Made by a program: the position numbers and the translations under genes. A DNA stretch of 5,682 nucleotides, from positions 1-5,682 of the forward strand of contig VBJR01000307.1 of assembly GCA_005880175.1 (NCBI GenBank), given 5' to 3'. The stretch comes from Chloroflexota bacterium (GTDB lineage Bacteria > Chloroflexota > Dormibacteria > Dormibacterales > Dormibacteraceae). Each line of letters opens with the position of its first letter. Within the stretch, counting starts at the first letter, position 1. The notes under the pieces were generated by a model. It saw only the letters and a list, made by a program, of their open reading frames with translations, was not told the origin of the DNA and made no database searches. This document shows positions 1-5,274 of this stretch, piece by piece.

Positions 1-67
1 TCTACCCACACTCCCACGCTTTCTCCTACAGTGTTCGGCGTTCGGGCACTCCGGATTGTGGGTGGGG

Positions 68-2431
68 ATGAGAGAGGGGACCTGGTCGGGGGAGCCAGCG
101 TTCGGCGCCCTGCTGCGCCGGCACCGCATCGCGGCGCGCCTCACGCAGGAGGCGCTGGCGGAGCGCGCGGGACTGAGCATGAAGACCGTCAGTGCGCTCG
201 AGAGCGGGGCGCGCAGGAGCCCGTACCAGACGACCGTCGACCGGCTGGCCGCCGCCCTGCGCCTCTCGCCGCAGCAGCGTGCCGAGCTGGCCGCGTCGGC
301 GCGCCGCCGGCCCCGGAGTGCGGTCCGCACGGAGCGGCCGGCACTGGGCGGGCCGCGCGTGCGGCTGCCACTGCCGCCCACCCCGCTGGTGGGGCGGGGC
401 GCCGACCTCGCCCTCGGCCTGGAGCTCGCGAGCCGGCCGGAGGTGCGCCTGCTCACGGTCGTTGGCCCCGCCGGCGTCGGGAAGAGCCGGCTCGCGCTGG
501 AGCTGGCCCGGGAGCTGGCGGCCGGCAGCGACGAGGTGGCGCTCGTGCCGCTGAACGCGCTCTCCGACCCGGGCCAGGTCGGTGCGGCGATCCAGCAGGT
601 GCTGGCGGTGCCGGACGGCGCGGAACCGGTGGTCGAGCGGCTGTCCGGCAACGTGGGCTCGCGGCGCGTCCTCCTCGTGCTCGACGGCTTCGAGCACGTG
701 CTGCCGGCGGCCAGGCTCGTGGCCTCACTGCTGGCGGCGTGCCGCCAGCTGTCCGTCCTGGTCACCAGCCGGGCGCCGCTGGGCGTCCGCGGCGAGCACC
801 GCCTGCCGCTGCTGCCGCTCGAGGTCGCCGACGCCGTCGAGCTCTTCGTGCAGCGGGCGCGGGCGGCCAACCCGCGGTTCCGTCCGCGGCCCGAGAACGC
901 GGCGGCGGTGGCCGAGATCTGCCGGCGCCTGGACGGCCTGCCGCTGGCGCTGGAGCTGGCGGCGCCGCGGCTCACGGCGCTGTCGCCGGAAGAGCTGCTG
1001 GCGCGGCTGGACGACCGGCTGCCGCTGCTGACCGGCGGCCCTGCCGACCTGGCCGAGCACCAGCGCACGCTCCGCGGCGCGCTGGACTGGAGCCACGACC
1101 TGCTGGAGCCGGCCGAGCGGGTGCTGTTCCGCCGGCTGTCGGTCTTCCGCGGGGCGTTCGAGCTGGACGCGGCGAGGGCGGTGTGCGCCTGCGGCGACGT
1201 CCACGGCCGCCTGTCGCGGCTGGTGGAGGTGTCGCTGGTCGCGGTCGCGCCGGAGTCCGATGCGGGCGGGCCGGCGCGGTACTGGCTGCTGGACACGGTT
1301 CGCGCCTACGCCGCTGAGCAGCTCGCCGCCGCCGAGCCGGCGGAGGAGGTCCGCGAGCGACACGCGCGCCACTACCTGGGGGTGGCGGAGGCCGGCCGCG
1401 ACGTCGGATGGTCGCCGGGACGGGTCGACCTGATCCACCGCCTGGAGGCGTGTCATGCGGACCTGCGCGCGGCCCTCCTGTGGCTGCGGATGCACGAGGT
1501 CGCGCGCTGGGTGCAGATGATCACGGCGCTGGGCTGGTTCTGGGTGACGTACTCGCACCTCGACGAGGGGCGCGAGTGGCTCCTGGGCGCGCTGGAGGTG
1601 GTCTCGCCGGCCTCCGCCGAGCGGTGCCAGGTGCTCCACCGGCTCGGTGTGCTGGCCTACTGGCAGGGCCAGTACGCGGCGGCGCGCGAGCTGCTGAGCG
1701 GCAGCCTGGCGCTGGCGGAGGAGCTCGGCGATGGCGACGAAGCGACGCGGATCAGGGCCTCGATCGGGCACGCCGCGCTGGCCTCGGGCGACCGGGCGGG
1801 TGCGTGGGCGGCGTACGAGCAGGTCCTGGCCGGCCATACCGACGAGGGGCTGCGCGCCTACGTGCTGGTCATGACCGGAGACCTCCACCTGCAGGAGGGC
1901 CGCGTCGCCGAGGCGCGGGAGGTGCTGCGGCGCGGCCTGGCCATGGCCTCCGCGGCCGGCCGGATGGACGCGGTGGCGCGGGCCGAGCTGTTCCTCGGGG
2001 TCGCCGCGTACTACTCGGGCGACAACGCCGAGGCGCTGCGCCGGGCGGGGACGGGCCTGCGCGGGTACGCGACGATCGGGCACTGGAGCGGCGTGGCCGG
2101 CACGCTGGAAGGCATGGCGGTGCTGGCGATGGCGGACGGAGACGCGACCCGCGCGCTGCGGTTGGGTGGCGCGGCGGCGGCGATCCGCCGCCAGATCGGC
2201 TCGCCAGCGGGCCAGGGCTGGGAGGCTGCCGTGACGAGCGCCGCGTTCGAGCCGGCCCGGGCGGTCGCCGGCGCCGCGGCGGACGCGGCATGGTCGGACG
2301 GCGAGCGCCTCTGGGTGGGCGGCGCGATCGAGTACGCGCTGGGCGGCGACCTGCGGTCGTGCGTCGAGACGCACGTGGCAGTGCGCCCTCAGGAGGCCGT
2401 TCGAGGCGCTGCGCGACCTCTCAGCCGCTGA
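68..2431 (+). CDS. XRE-family HTH / NB-ARC-like STAND ATPase with TPR repeats, putative transcriptional regulator
   Basis: This is a large cytoplasmic signal-transduction ATPase of the STAND type, about 787 residues from the ATG at 68. An XRE-type helix-turn-helix fills residues about 9-70 ([16 protein letters not shown], then KTVSALESG). The nucleotide-binding region has a Walker A GPAGVGKS at 133-140, a Walker B-like LLVLDGFEH with Asp at about 206, a sensor [11 protein letters not shown], and a GLPLA motif at about 290. A winged-helix-like segment follows (ALDWSHDLL). Alanine-rich helical pairs from about 520 to 720 look like TPRs and would bind a ligand or partner. In this family, binding is thought to release nucleotide-dependent autoinhibition so that the HTH can act on DNA; the target here is unknown. 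No C-terminal LuxR or SARP domain is visible. TTG at 56 and GTG at 62 are in-frame alternative starts, and no start has a well-spaced Shine-Dalgarno. The next gene has its own promoter, so this gene looks monocistronic. Family assignment is firm; regulatory role is inferred. Confidence 0.9.
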
Positions 2432-2435: not shown

Positions 2436-2578
2436 CGAGTTCAAGTACACACGACAACTCCCGAGATGGCGGGAAAGGCGAACTGCGGCCACACCGCCGA
2501 GGCTCGGCGTCTTCCGAAACCGCGTGTCGGGAGTATGCGATCACGGGCTCCTCCGCGGAGGGTGCGCCCTCGCGTGCC
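2432..2578. other. Intergenic region with small inverted repeats
   Basis: I see no coding region here. It holds several short inverted repeats: TCCCG/CGGGA (2459-2474), CGCCGA/TCGGCG with a 3-base loop (2495-2509), the self-complementary CCTCCGCGGAGG (2550-2561), and GAGGG/CCCTC with a 4-base loop (2558-2571). The last two share bases 2558-2561, so they could not both form in one RNA. They may be extra termination signals or regulator sites, but short repeats of this size are expected by chance in such GC-rich DNA. Confidence 0.3.
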
Positions 2579-2615
2579 TTGACGGGCCAGATGTGACCGG
2601 TCACAATCCATGGTA
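2579..2615 (+). promoter_or_regulatory. Putative housekeeping-sigma promoter of the lacI-type gene, leaderless
   Basis: TTGACG at 2579-2584 matches the -35 consensus in five of six positions. CACAAT at 2602-2607 matches TATAAT in four of six, including the key A and final T. The spacer is exactly 17 bp. Initiation 7-8 bases after the -10 falls at 2614-2615, which is the A of the lacI ATG, so the transcript is predicted to be leaderless. The absence of any Shine-Dalgarno before that ATG agrees. An operator palindrome covers the spacer and part of the -10. Confidence 0.65.
2592..2605. promoter_or_regulatory. LacI-family operator O1, palindrome TGTGACCGGTCACA
   Basis: This is a perfect 14-bp palindrome with a central CpG, the usual form of a LacI-family operator. 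It lies between the -35 and -10 elements and overlaps the first four bases of the -10, so a bound repressor would block RNA polymerase. Its TGTGA half-site equals that of the E. coli lac operator. The same 14 bp recur 28 bp downstream. Confidence 0.8.
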
Positions 2616-3670
2616 TGCGTGTGACCGGTCACACGAGCAGCATCCGGGACGTCGCCGCGGCGGCCGGGGTGTCCTACCAGACGGTGTCCCGCGTGATCAA
2701 CAGCCATCCCTCGGTCAGGGCGTCCACGCGCGAGACCGTGCTCGCCGCCATCGCGGAGCTCGGCTTCCGGCCCAACCGGGCGGCGCGGGCCCTGGCCGGC
2801 GGCCCGGTCGAGTCCGTCACCGTGCTGACGGGCAACACCGCCCGGTACGGGTACTCGGCGGGGCTCCAGGGCATCGAGGAGGCTGCGCGGCTCGCGGGCT
2901 ACGCGGTGGGCGTCCGGATGATCGAGTCGGTCGCCGCCCAGGAGCTGGACGACGCGGTCAGGAGGGCGATCGAGCCGGGTGCCGGGCTCATCGCGATCGC
3001 CTACGACCCGGCCGGGACGATGGCGGTGAGCGCCGTGCCGCCGGACGTCCCGGTCGTCGCGATGGTCGAGGCCCCGGTGGGAGACGACGCGCGGGGGAAG
3101 CCGTGGGTGTGGGTGGACGACGGGAAGGCCGCGCGGCAGGCGACGCGCTTCCTGCTCGCCCTGGGCCACCGGACGGTGCGCTACGTGTCGATCCCGTCCT
3201 CTACCGACGCGCCCAGCCAGCGGCTGGCCGGCTGGCGGGCGGAGCTGGAGGCCGCCGGCGCCCCCGTCGTCGAACCGCTGGCCGCGGGCTGGGACCCTCG
3301 CTCCGGGTACCTGGCCGGGCAGACCCTGGCCGCGGACGACGAGGTCACCGCGGTGCTGTGCGGCAATGACGACATCGCGCTCGGCGTGATGCGAGCGCTG
3401 CGGGAAGCGGGCCGGCGGGTGCCGGACGACGTCAGCGTGGTCGGGTTCGACGACATCCCGCTGGCCGAGTTCTTCACGCCCGCCCTGACCACGGTCCGCC
3501 TCGACTTCGCCGGGCTCGGCCGGGTCGCGTTCGGCCTGCTCCGCGGCCTGGTGGACCCGAGGACGGCGACCGCCGACCCGCCGCGCGGGCCCGAGCCGGA
3601 GCTGATCGTCAGGGAGAGCGCCGGGCCGCCGCGGACCGCGGCCGGACGCCGCCCGGGCCGAATCCCGTGA
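2615..3670 (+). CDS. LacI-family transcriptional repressor
   Basis: This is a complete 351-residue sugar-responsive repressor, near the family's usual length of about 330-350. The N-terminal helix-turn-helix (SIRDVAAAAGVSYQTVSRVIN, residues about 9-29) has recognition residues Y21, Q22 and R26, as in E. coli LacI. The hinge helix is FRPNRAARALAG (about 51-62). The ligand-binding core shows typical landmarks: AVLCGNDDIALGVMRAL, RRVPDDVSVVGFDD (around 270-280) and the PALTTVRLD segment. It should bind DNA as a dimer and release it on binding a sugar, whose identity cannot be read here. I chose the ATG at 2615 because it coincides with the predicted transcription start; GTG at 2621 is an in-frame alternative. 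Two operator-like palindromes in its promoter and first codons imply autorepression. The stop overlaps the next frame by four bases, and a secreted glycosidase lies downstream, a plausible co-regulated target. The arginine- and proline-rich tail after LIVRESAGPP is slightly long. Confidence 0.95.
   Translation: MRVTGHTSSIRDVAAAAGVSYQTVSRVINSHPSVRASTRETVLAAIAELGFRPNRAARALAGGPVESVTVLTGNTARYGYSAGLQGIEEAARLAGYAVGVRMIESVAAQELDDAVRRAIEPGAGLIAIAYDPAGTMAVSAVPPDVPVVAMVEAPVGDDARGKPWVWVDDGKAARQATRFLLALGHRTVRYVSIPSSTDAPSQRLAGWRAELEAAGAPVVEPLAAGWDPRSGYLAGQTLAADDEVTAVLCGNDDIALGVMRALREAGRRVPDDVSVVGFDDIPLAEFFTPALTTVRLDFAGLGRVAFGLLRGLVDPRTATADPPRGPEPELIVRESAGPPRTAAGRRPGRIP
2618..2635. promoter_or_regulatory. 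LacI-family operator O2, 18-bp palindrome within the start of lacI
   Basis: CGTGTGACCGGTCACACG is a perfect 18-bp palindrome containing the same 14-bp core as O1. It covers codons 2-7 of the downstream regulator (Arg-Val-Thr-Gly-His-Thr) and about +4 to +21 of the predicted transcript. Centre-to-centre distance to O1 is 28 bp. Two identical perfect copies in 44 bp are very unlikely by chance and imply autoregulation by the adjacent LacI protein. Confidence 0.8.
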
Positions 3671-3867
3671 GCGACCTCGATAGGCGGCTCACCGTCCTCG
3701 ACCCCATCGACGCGCACTGCCCGAGTCAGGTCACCCCGGGCATGAACCAGGCGCTGCTCGACATGGCCAACCAGCTCGAGCCCGCCTACCTGACCGGCGG
3801 CAACGCAGCCCAGGCGGTGGATGCCGCCGCGAGACAGGCGAACGGCGATTTGGCATCCGCGGGCTGA
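3667..3867 (+). pseudogene. Probable C-terminal remnant of a sugar ABC-transporter substrate-binding protein
   Basis: This is a 66-codon frame starting at GTG 3667, which overlaps the lacI TGA (GTGA). There is no Shine-Dalgarno, so it would depend on translational coupling. From about residue 20 the sequence (PGMNQALLDMANQLEPAYL, then TGGNAAQAVDAAARQANGDL) has the pattern seen at the extreme C-terminus of CUT1-type carbohydrate-binding lipoproteins, where a helix and loop are followed by a repeated Ala/Asp/Asn helix ending about 5-10 residues before the stop. Such proteins are normally about 400-450 residues. This frame lacks the lipoprotein signal and both lobes, so as a binding protein it cannot be functional. 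The perfect hairpin at its stop fits a genuine old gene end. The likely explanation is a deletion between lacI and the 3' end of a transporter gene. A small, independently functioning peptide remains possible. The family match rests on pattern recognition, not a search. Confidence 0.5.
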
Positions 3868-3875
3868 CCCGCGGA
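3856..3875 (+). terminator. Hairpin with the stop codon of the 66-codon frame in its loop
   Basis: TCCGCGGG pairs perfectly with CCCGCGGA around the loop CTGA, which holds the TGA stop (3865-3867). The 8-bp stem is almost all G-C and has no T-tract after it. It lies 17 bases before the glycosidase Shine-Dalgarno, so it could end, attenuate or stabilise the transcript between lacI and the glycosidase. Confidence 0.5.
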
Positions 3876-3892
3876 CATCGTCGACGTTGCGG

Positions 3893-3899
3893 AAGGAGG
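3893..3899 (+). promoter_or_regulatory. Strong ribosome-binding site of the glycosidase
   Basis: AAGGAGG is a near-perfect anti-16S match, 7 bases before the ATG at 3907. It fixes that start and is the only strong Shine-Dalgarno seen ahead of a gene in this window. Confidence 0.85.
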
Positions 3900-3906
3900 G
3901 ATTGCG

Positions 3907-5274
3907 ATGCGGACGAGATCCGGAGCCGGCCGTGCGTTCGTGATGGCCGGCCTGGCCCTGCTGCTGGCCCTGCTGTGGCCGGCGCCGACGGCCGGCCAGG
4001 CGGCGGAGTCGCTGACCGTGAACCTGGCCGCGCGGACGAGGCCGGCGACGCACGTGGGCGAGGGCTTCCTGTACGGGATCAGCCAGGACGCCTCGCTTCC
4101 GGCGAACCAGTTCCTGCAGCCGCTGGGCGTCAACGCCTTCCGCGGCGCGGGCCACGCCTCCCGAGGTTGGATCGGGGACAACTACACCTTCGGCACCGGC
4201 GCCCGGGCCGACATCACCGAGGCGATCACCCAGGCCAGGCACCTGTCCGGTGCGCAGTACCAGGTGATCCTCAGCGACGTCTACGGCGCGGACGGCGGCC
4301 AGCCGTCCAACACGATGTGGCCGTGCGACGGCGGCAGCTGCGCGAACTACGTGAGCTTCCTCGACTCCGTCGTCGGGGCCCTGCAGGCGTCCGGGCTCAA
4401 GTTCGCGTACGACGTCTGGAACGAGCCGGACATCTCCGTCTTCTGGGCGCGGGGCATGAACAGCGCCCAGTACTTCCAGATGTGGGACACGGGCGTGCGC
4501 GAGATCCGGCGCATCGCCCCGGGCGCGACGATCGTGGGGCCGTCCGTCGCCATCACCCCGCAGCAGAGCCCGAGCGAATGGCAGACCTGGCTGGCCCACG
4601 TCAAGGGCGCCGGCACGCTGCCGAACGAGATCTCCAACCACCTCGAGGGCGACGGGGACGACCCGGTGACCGTGGCGCCGGCGATCAACGCCGATTTCTC
4701 GTCCAACGGCATCGCGCCCATCGCGCTGTCAGCGAACGAGTTCGGGCCCCGTGACCAGCAGACGGCCGGTCAGTCGGCCTGGTACCTGGCGCGCCTCGCC
4801 CAGTCCCGGTACGCCAACGCGATGCGCGGCAACTGGGTCTGCTGCGAGACGCCCAACCTGACCGGGCTCCTCACCCAGAGTGGGAGCACCTGGCTGGCCA
4901 CCGGCATCTGGTGGACGTTCCGAAGCTACGCGGACCTCACCGGCTCGCTGGTGTCCACCTCCGGCCAGGTGGGGTCCACGGCGATCTCGGCGGCCGAGGA
5001 CAGCTCGGCGCGCCGCGCCGTGGCCATCGTCGGCGACGACGGCAGCTTCACCGGCGCCGCGTCCGTGACCTTCGGCGGCCTGTCGTCGGTTTCCTTTCTG
5101 GCCAACAACGGCAGCATCCACGTCACCGTGGACCGCATCCCGGACCAGGCGCCGCTCAGCGCACCGCAGGTGGTCCTCAGCCGGAACATGAGCACGTCGA
5201 GCGGCTCGTTCACCGTCCCCCTCACGTTCCAGGCCGCCCACGACGCGTTCGCCATCTACCTGACTCGACCCTGA
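3907..5274 (+). CDS. Secreted clan GH-A glycoside hydrolase, GH39-like
   Basis: This 455-residue protein appears to be an exported glycosidase. It has an N-terminal signal peptide: basic MRTRSGAGR, a hydrophobic core at about 10-25, and probable cleavage near AGQA or AA at 32-33. The body reads as a (beta/alpha)8 barrel. YDVWNEPD places the probable acid/base Glu at 173, in the Asn-Glu-Pro context typical of clan GH-A. IALSANEFG places the probable nucleophile at Glu278. WWTF (335-338) fits the end of strand 8. A small beta-sandwich domain fills about 360-455. The retaining mechanism is inferred from clan membership. WNEPDISVFW resembles GH39 beta-xylosidases and PslG-like enzymes, but the substrate cannot be assigned. 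Two cysteine pairs (PCDGGSC; vicinal CC in WVCCE) suit an exported protein. The gene lies 39 bp after the binding-protein remnant and probably shares the LacI-controlled transcript. A strong stem-loop follows. Other GH-A families (GH5- or GH30-like) are the main alternatives. Confidence 0.8.
   Translation: MRTRSGAGRAFVMAGLALLLALLWPAPTAGQAAESLTVNLAARTRPATHVGEGFLYGISQDASLPANQFLQPLGVNAFRGAGHASRGWIGDNYTFGTGARADITEAITQARHLSGAQYQVILSDVYGADGGQPSNTMWPCDGGSCANYVSFLDSVVGALQASGLKFAYDVWNEPDISVFWARGMNSAQYFQMWDTGVREIRRIAPGATIVGPSVAITPQQSPSEWQTWLAHVKGAGTLPNEISNHLEGDGDDPVTVAPAINADFSSNGIAPIALSANEFGPRDQQTAGQSAWYLARLAQSRYANAMRGNWVCCETPNLTGLLTQSGSTWLATGIWWTFRSYADLTGSLVSTSGQVGSTAISAAEDSSARRAVAIVGDDGSFTGAASVTFGGLSSVSFLANNGSIHVTVDRIPDQAPLSAPQVVLSRNMSTSSGSFTVPLTFQAAHDAFAIYLTRP

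Follow-up and report, generated by a model that had tools for sequence, protein, structure and literature searches.

Among the closest described systems to the element reported here is that of the E. coli lac repressor, with which it has the operator half-site TGTGA in common. The likeness extends to membership of the LacI family, to the Y-Q recognition residues and to one operator near +11, and lacI of E. coli is described as being autoregulated too. For LacI-family local regulons, Ravcheev et al. 2014 (PMC4052901) report autoregulation in 72% of factors, multiple sites before about 20% of operons and operators that follow a central CG rule; fewer than 1% of sites lie in coding regions, and spacings between sites peak at 13, 22 and 32 bp, of which the 22- and 32-bp classes are read as cooperative. 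In engineered promoters, a lac operator placed in the -35/-10 spacer competes directly with polymerase, the canonical proximal lac operator being centred at +11 (PMC7804116), and leakage falls as operators are added (PMC7059391).

We describe here a lacI promoter in a 5,682-nucleotide stretch of DNA (the whole of which we call ‘the window’) that carries two operators, the second of them in the first codons of the gene. With a probability of roughly 0.8, we read the pair as a conserved autorepression switch of a probably dimeric, alpha-galactoside-sensing LacI-family repressor, two dimers of which would occlude their own promoter. In contrast to E. coli lac, the operator has CCGG at its centre, two adjacent sites lie at the repressor's own promoter, the protein has no match to the C-terminal end of the LacI model, and no distant looping operator was found in the window. 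The tandem operators surveyed by Ravcheev et al. share the autoregulation and the multiple sites but differ in spacing, here 27-28 bp, and the second site here falls in codons; the engineered promoters share the spacer position and the use of more than one operator, whereas the present element is natural, autogenous and predicted to be leaderless, with its second operator translated. Autoregulation and tandem sites are common in the family, but their conserved fusion with a leaderless start and a codon-embedded operator looks new: a literature search that covered few subscription journals found no paper with the exact 14-mer TGTGACCGGTCACA, and no description of the layout, as judged mainly by titles and abstract openings.

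Two perfect copies of TGTGACCGGTCACA are present in the window, 28 bp apart centre to centre (Table 1). The first copy and the -10 box overlap by four bases, which end the former and open the latter; the second copy starts at the third base of codon 2 (CGT), ends with the first base of codon 7 (ACG), and can be read off the sequence as part of an 18-bp palindrome. The two copies, their spacing, the overlap of the first with the -10 and the 18-bp extension of the second within codons 2-7 had been proposed in the first-pass annotation of the sequence and stand, as does its judgement that the pair is improbable by chance. A single 14-bp palindrome would be unsurprising (simulated mean, 1.6 per window), and the window has no perfect one other than these two; an identical pair within 50 bp occurred in 0 of 300 Markov-simulated windows, which rules out a chance origin, and with up to 3 mismatches allowed two or more matches arose in 3 of 200 shuffles, the window's pair having 0 mismatches. 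As an even palindrome with a central CG, TGTGACCGGTCACA has the form of a LacI/GalR-family operator, and binding by the adjacent protein is predicted. That protein is indeed of the LacI family, as had been claimed, with an N-terminal LacI helix-turn-helix domain (PF00356, 2.6e-18) and a periplasmic-binding-protein-like sensor (PF13377, 2.3e-33); against the NCBIfam model of the E. coli LacI subfamily (PRK09526) it scores 209.5 bits, below the cut-off of 340, which makes it a family member only.

Table 1. Features of the lacI locus and its surroundings in the window.
Feature	Position	Strand	Basis and remarks
XRE-HTH/ATPase/TPR-type regulator	56-2431		weak match to RiPP-cluster TPR protein model, far below cut-off
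-35 box TTGACG of lacI promoter	2579..2584	+	consensus scan; TTGAC in 31/31 close pairs
Operator 1	2592..2605	.	TGTGACCGGTCACA; in -35/-10 spacer, overlaps -10; centre about -16.5
-10 box CACAAT	2602..2607	+	consensus scan; first four bases supplied by operator 1
ATG start codon and predicted (leaderless) transcription start	2615..2617	+	7 nt after -10
LacI-family repressor, 351 aa	2615..3670	+	recognition helix SYQTVSRV; Pfam LacI and Peripla_BP_3; PDB relatives LacI, PurR, CcpA
Operator 2	2618..2635	.	14-mer 2620-2633 plus extension; codons 2-7 (RVTGHT); centre about +12.5
C-terminal remnant of ABC sugar-binding protein	3667..3867	+	phmmer 7.6e-19 (L163), 3e-18 (L169)
GH39-like glycoside hydrolase	3907..5274	+	weak Glyco_hydro_39 match, below cut-off
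Part of ABC transporter	after hydrolase	minus	

Comparison with related genomes, one of the checks put forward at the outset, finds the palindromes conserved at the lacI genes of relatives. The loci were drawn from species genomes (the best 80 of 232), from protein searches of genomes (with a match at the thresholds used in 49 of 341, 4 of 299, 1 of 296, 17 of 160, 12 of 101 and 3 of 32, some genomes being searched twice; the first of these searches contributed 30 loci, weaker matches being left out) and from a pattern scan of genomes. Removal of stretches that were identical across 400 bp, and of those lacking a recognisable recognition helix, reduced 132 matches to 108 lacI loci, the window included; these are a non-random sample, with many of the positives being near-copies from one genus. 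The site search covered the 330 bp preceding the recognition helix (105 bp in L086, which is cut by its contig end) and allowed 2 mismatches in 12 positions. Operator pairs 18-50 bp apart are present at 34 of the 108 loci, at a spacing of 27 bp in 26, 28 in 2 (the window and L143), 22 in 1, 23 in 2, 43 in 2 and 45 in 1. The 77 loci without a pair at 22-28 bp divide into 32 with no site (L086 among them), 37 with one, 5 with sites far apart and 3 at 43-45 bp; at several of them, a neighbouring gene has tandem sites in front of it instead.

Among the 31 close pairs (22-28 bp), both operators are perfect TGTGACCGGTCACA in 18. Operator 2 is weak or lost in L083, L084 and L131, and operator 1 in L132, L133 and L142. 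The 26 loci with a 27-bp spacing give the consensus Ttgacg.cc.... TGTGACCGgTCACA ATCctggC ATG.a TGTGACCGGTCACA CaAG (capitals, at least 90%). A conserved operator at the gene's own promoter, the mark of an autoregulated local repressor, is found in these 31 close pairs with promoter among the 108 loci, and at the level of sequence the operator pair and promoter are a conserved composite element. A scan of 394 genomes of the class for two TGTGANCGNTCACA sites separated by 4-30 bp finds 7 with such a pair, and none for the reversed control: in G660 and G400 it is this element at lacI, in G537 a 27-bp pair lies between GH36-like and IclR-family genes, and in four genomes (G003, a Microbispora, and three more) a 30-bp pair follows a lacI paralogue. 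At L173 in G537 (5662-5702) the 27-bp pair is accompanied by an ATG-VTGHT stub with no lacI there, a lacI sitting elsewhere in the genome; here the operator switch appears to have survived the loss of its regulator gene. Upstream of lacI in L124, there are three operator copies 45 bp apart.

Between 2440 and 3960, a consensus scan, which covers sigma-70-like promoters only, returns one match, TTGACG, 17 bp, CACAAT, against a shuffle mean of 0.0. Throughout the 31 close pairs, the -35 box has TTGAC (best of spacers 16-19; a count biased by the way in which sites were picked), the -35/-10 spacer is 17 or 18 bp, and the -10 box is CACAAT in 27, with the remaining 4 differing by one change each. 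From the -10 to the start codon there are 6 nt in 25 pairs, 7 in 3 and 8 in 1, the other two having no assigned value; this gap of 6-8 nt in 29 of 31 agrees with the rule that the -10-like box of leaderless genes begins about 12 bp before the start codon (PMC3160421), but CACAAT is without the first T of TANNNT. In the window, the frame upstream of the lacI ATG is closed by a stop inside operator 1 (at -21). We predict from this layout that the lacI mRNA is leaderless, its first base being that of the start codon; in S. coelicolor, leaderless mRNAs are reported to account for about 21% of primary starts (PMC4895711). If lacI is leaderless, an operator just downstream of the transcription start must sit in codons, and motif surveys limited to upstream DNA can miss operators in genes of this kind. 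Judged from the proteins only, two of the 120 listed homologues (P0082 and P0119) have an earlier start and appear to be translated through both operators, as do a further seven in which the first site is a variant; this suggests that their start predictions are misplaced.

The recognition helix of the window repressor carries Y-Q, the wild-type pair of E. coli LacI. In the published code, which links AA-15/16 to NT-5/-4, Y-Q goes with TG on a symmetric lac site (Camas et al., PMC2978694), and the window operator, with TG at NT-5/-4, agrees. Over the 76 loci that have a site, the GTTA half-site is found in none of 37 Y-Q loci and in 32 of 39 non-YQ loci (Fisher 6e-15); on the tree, recognition residue and half-site provide 4-6 independent contrasts, each in the expected direction or without difference, and the sign test is not significant. 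The operator sites appear to vary with the recognition residues. At L130, a change of residue in the protein accompanies a change of operator: the helix has H instead of Y (HQ), both operators are TGTGACCGGTAACA (GGTAACA) and the peptide is VTGN. In its tree neighbour, L127, the TGTGACCGGTAACA-type change is seen in operator 1 only.

Judged by its codons, operator 2 is maintained as DNA, not as peptide. At the 28 loci with 27-28 bp spacing, codon 2 is AAT, GAT, GTT, CGT, CAT, TAT or TCT in 26 and AAC or TCA in 2, giving N, D, V, R, H, Y or S with a third-base T in 26 of 28, compared with a 3.8% T background in the same genes; the Gly codon of operator 2, where present, is GGT in 27 of 27, compared with 8.2%, both counts being somewhat biased by the requirement for an operator-like site, and L082 being kept despite its broken frame. 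A regulatory DNA site can here be traced as dictating protein sequence: the residue at codon 2 varies, its last base stays, and rare codons are kept. The VTGH frame is used in 29 of 31 close pairs, the exceptions being L082 and L158 (other frame). In the distant loci L122, L124 and L125, which share a class with G002 (whose locus, L005, is from Solirubrobacterales), translation runs through the proximal site in a different frame. The Q-Q clade (15 loci; 16 less L097, which has no site) keeps one site in lacI, GTTACCGGTCAC or GTTATCGGTCAC, in codons 3-6, and of the 153 invariant-residue columns examined there, the only two with invariant T/A-ending codons are both inside the site.

Could operator 1 alone repress, with the second copy kept since VTGHT forms a useful N-terminal arm and the palindrome incidental to it? 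V[TIS]GH does occur near the N-terminus, within 60 aa, in 79 of the 120 listed homologues, counting the window protein; yet the retention of rare T-ending codons, the confinement of the Q-Q clade's only invariant T/A-ending codons to the site, the other reading frame at L122, L124 and L125, and the appearance of VTGN where the operators differ all speak against it, and we regard it as very improbable. We favour maintenance as DNA. Because a leaderless mRNA would force a downstream operator into codons 2-7, the N-terminal VTGHT is a probable by-product of the operator. To the right of operator 2, outside the palindrome, CAAG is found in 23 of 31 close pairs and entails the Thr codon ACA, which is rare (1.8% of Thr codons); perhaps it serves translation from the leaderless start.

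Bringing these observations together, we propose the following model. Without inducer, one dimer would occupy operator 1, across the spacer and the -10 box, and a second would occupy operator 2, at about +6 to +19, on a nearly opposite face of the DNA (27-28 bp, about 2.6 turns). Either dimer alone should exclude RNA polymerase; their effects would multiply, and little repressor would be made. A sugar ligand would release both dimers and switch on lacI together with the following gene, here GH39-like and in relatives an ABC importer. Such a natural, compact and doubly blocked promoter is a test object for repression geometry. DNA looping was considered and rejected: 28 bp is too short, as had been argued earlier, and the protein's match to the LacI model (5-336 of 358) ends short of the model's C-terminus.

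A site at about +6 to +19 falls within the usual polymerase footprint. The first-pass annotation had operator 1 blocking polymerase and operator 2 acting as a roadblock; we keep the former, but for operator 2, with its centre close to the canonical lac position of +11, occlusion is likelier. That operator 2 is mainly a roadblock to polymerase that has already started seems to us unlikely, even though it lies downstream of the predicted start and the Q-Q clade keeps a single such site in lacI genes that are mostly behind a solute-binding-protein gene or its apparent end (directly so in L006, with like stop-codon surroundings in most Q-Q loci). Those genes may have a start of their own: in 14 of 15 Q-Q loci (e.g. 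L093, L088 and L101) a TANNNT, which in most is the upstream gene's stop codon, is found 6-8 nt ahead of the lacI start and is possibly an internal leaderless promoter.

The suggestion that the two dimers sit on different faces of the DNA fits a spacing that recurs in 28 of the 34 pairs (27-28 bp) but is not universal, other lineages having 22-23 or 43-45 bp. Whole-turn, same-face spacings of 22 or 32 bp are not those of the window (28 bp) or of 26 of the 34 pairs (27 bp), and 22-23 bp is found in 3 of 34. We favour two independent, multiplying blocks because 27-28 bp would place the dimers on nearly opposite faces, unlike the cooperative 22- and 32-bp classes. Only just short of an even chance, in our estimation, is that this facing has no function, the spacing being a by-product of a start fixed 6-7 nt after the -10 and a frame that puts operator 2 at codon 3. 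Such an origin is compatible with the autorepression switch, fits the 22-23 bp of loci with a GTG start inside operator 2 (L126, L159), and sits well with the published family peaks of 13, 22 and 32 bp (PMC4052901); the recurrence of the spacing across branches (7 tree changes, at least 5 of them forced by starred branches) is, however, also expected if opposite faces matter. Returning to the autorepression switch, we speculate, tentatively and at somewhat less than even odds, that it is a natural two-face device: in a widespread actinobacterial LacI lineage, leaderless initiation would have fixed an operator in the first codons, so that the operator writes the N-terminus; two dimers 2.6 turns apart, outside the 13/22/32-bp peaks, would clamp opposite faces without cooperativity; and the codon operator would persist even when lacI is preceded by a transporter gene, with a stop codon possibly serving as the -10 as well.

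In the window, lacI is followed by a remnant whose two matches, from ORFs of 380-520 aa, are solute-binding proteins of the SBP_bac_1/8 type near the lacI genes of L163 and L169; the remnant has no Pfam match, and none to the one solute-binding protein it was first compared with, that of L168. No permease genes lie behind it, the importer being otherwise gone, and the locus has the appearance of a reduced alpha-galactoside operon. From its N-terminus, the GH39-like hydrolase is predicted to be secreted, and since 2440-3960 has no other sigma-70-like site, the lacI promoter probably drives both lacI and the hydrolase.

In 11 of 12 larger regions from relatives, a divergent long ORF faces the gap before lacI (L171 has none); measured from operator 1 at its right edge, the outermost possible start of this ORF lies 20-117 bp away in 10 regions, and in L161 the outermost candidate start overlaps the operator. 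All 7 divergent ORFs scanned (L160, L161, L162, L163, L166, L168 and L113) have a Melibiase (GH36) domain; the annotated genes of L171 (28 bp) include no GH36 neighbour. Downstream of lacI lie a solute-binding protein and two permeases in L168 and a solute-binding protein in L113, with importer genes nearby in L163 and L169; L168 has a further operator pair, 29 bp apart, before a GH27 alpha-galactosidase. In the clade of L028, L031, L032 and L111, sites come after lacI, and in the two annotated cases precede a CBM35 protein (L028) and a GH36-like gene (L032). Linkage to alpha-galactoside genes (GH36 Melibiase, GH27, solute-binding proteins and permeases) is a property of the annotated relatives, the window having only the solute-binding-protein remnant. 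The repressor probably senses alpha-galactosides. Tight autorepression had been predicted for the pair, and its layout supports this; we suggest that its role goes beyond autorepression and that it probably acts as the main switch for a small regulon of alpha-galactoside genes, because in several relatives the short gap before lacI also has the divergent GH36-like gene on its other side, and lacI is the first gene of a transporter operon. The element offers a handle on this probable regulon in actinobacteria.

A genome scan for the 14-mer, also advised at the outset, finds few sites outside lacI in 14 genomes of relatives (3-10 Mb): allowing 1 mismatch, there are 0-5 per genome (reversed control, 0-2), and perfect copies occur in 9 of 14, as the lacI pair only in 8 and with one extra pair in G055. 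With so few sites, a role as global regulator is unsupported, and LacI looks like a local regulator. The extra pair of G055, the only other perfect one in that genome, has a 43-bp spacing and precedes a GH39-ricin protein that is 76% identical to the window hydrolase over 435 residues. GH39-like homologues are present in 4 of the 14 genomes, all chosen for carrying this lacI; the other 10 have none at 1e-40, which speaks against a general link. The 6 places examined around a GH39-like homologue (L172 and L174 being one and the same) have 1 perfect pair, 1 adjacent TGTGAGCGCTCACA pair, 2 single TGTTAGCGCTAACA sites and, in 2 cases, none, so rare a perfect pair likewise telling against a general link. 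In L178, the two TGTGAGCGCTCACA sites upstream of the GH39-like gene directly adjoin one another, 14 bp apart.
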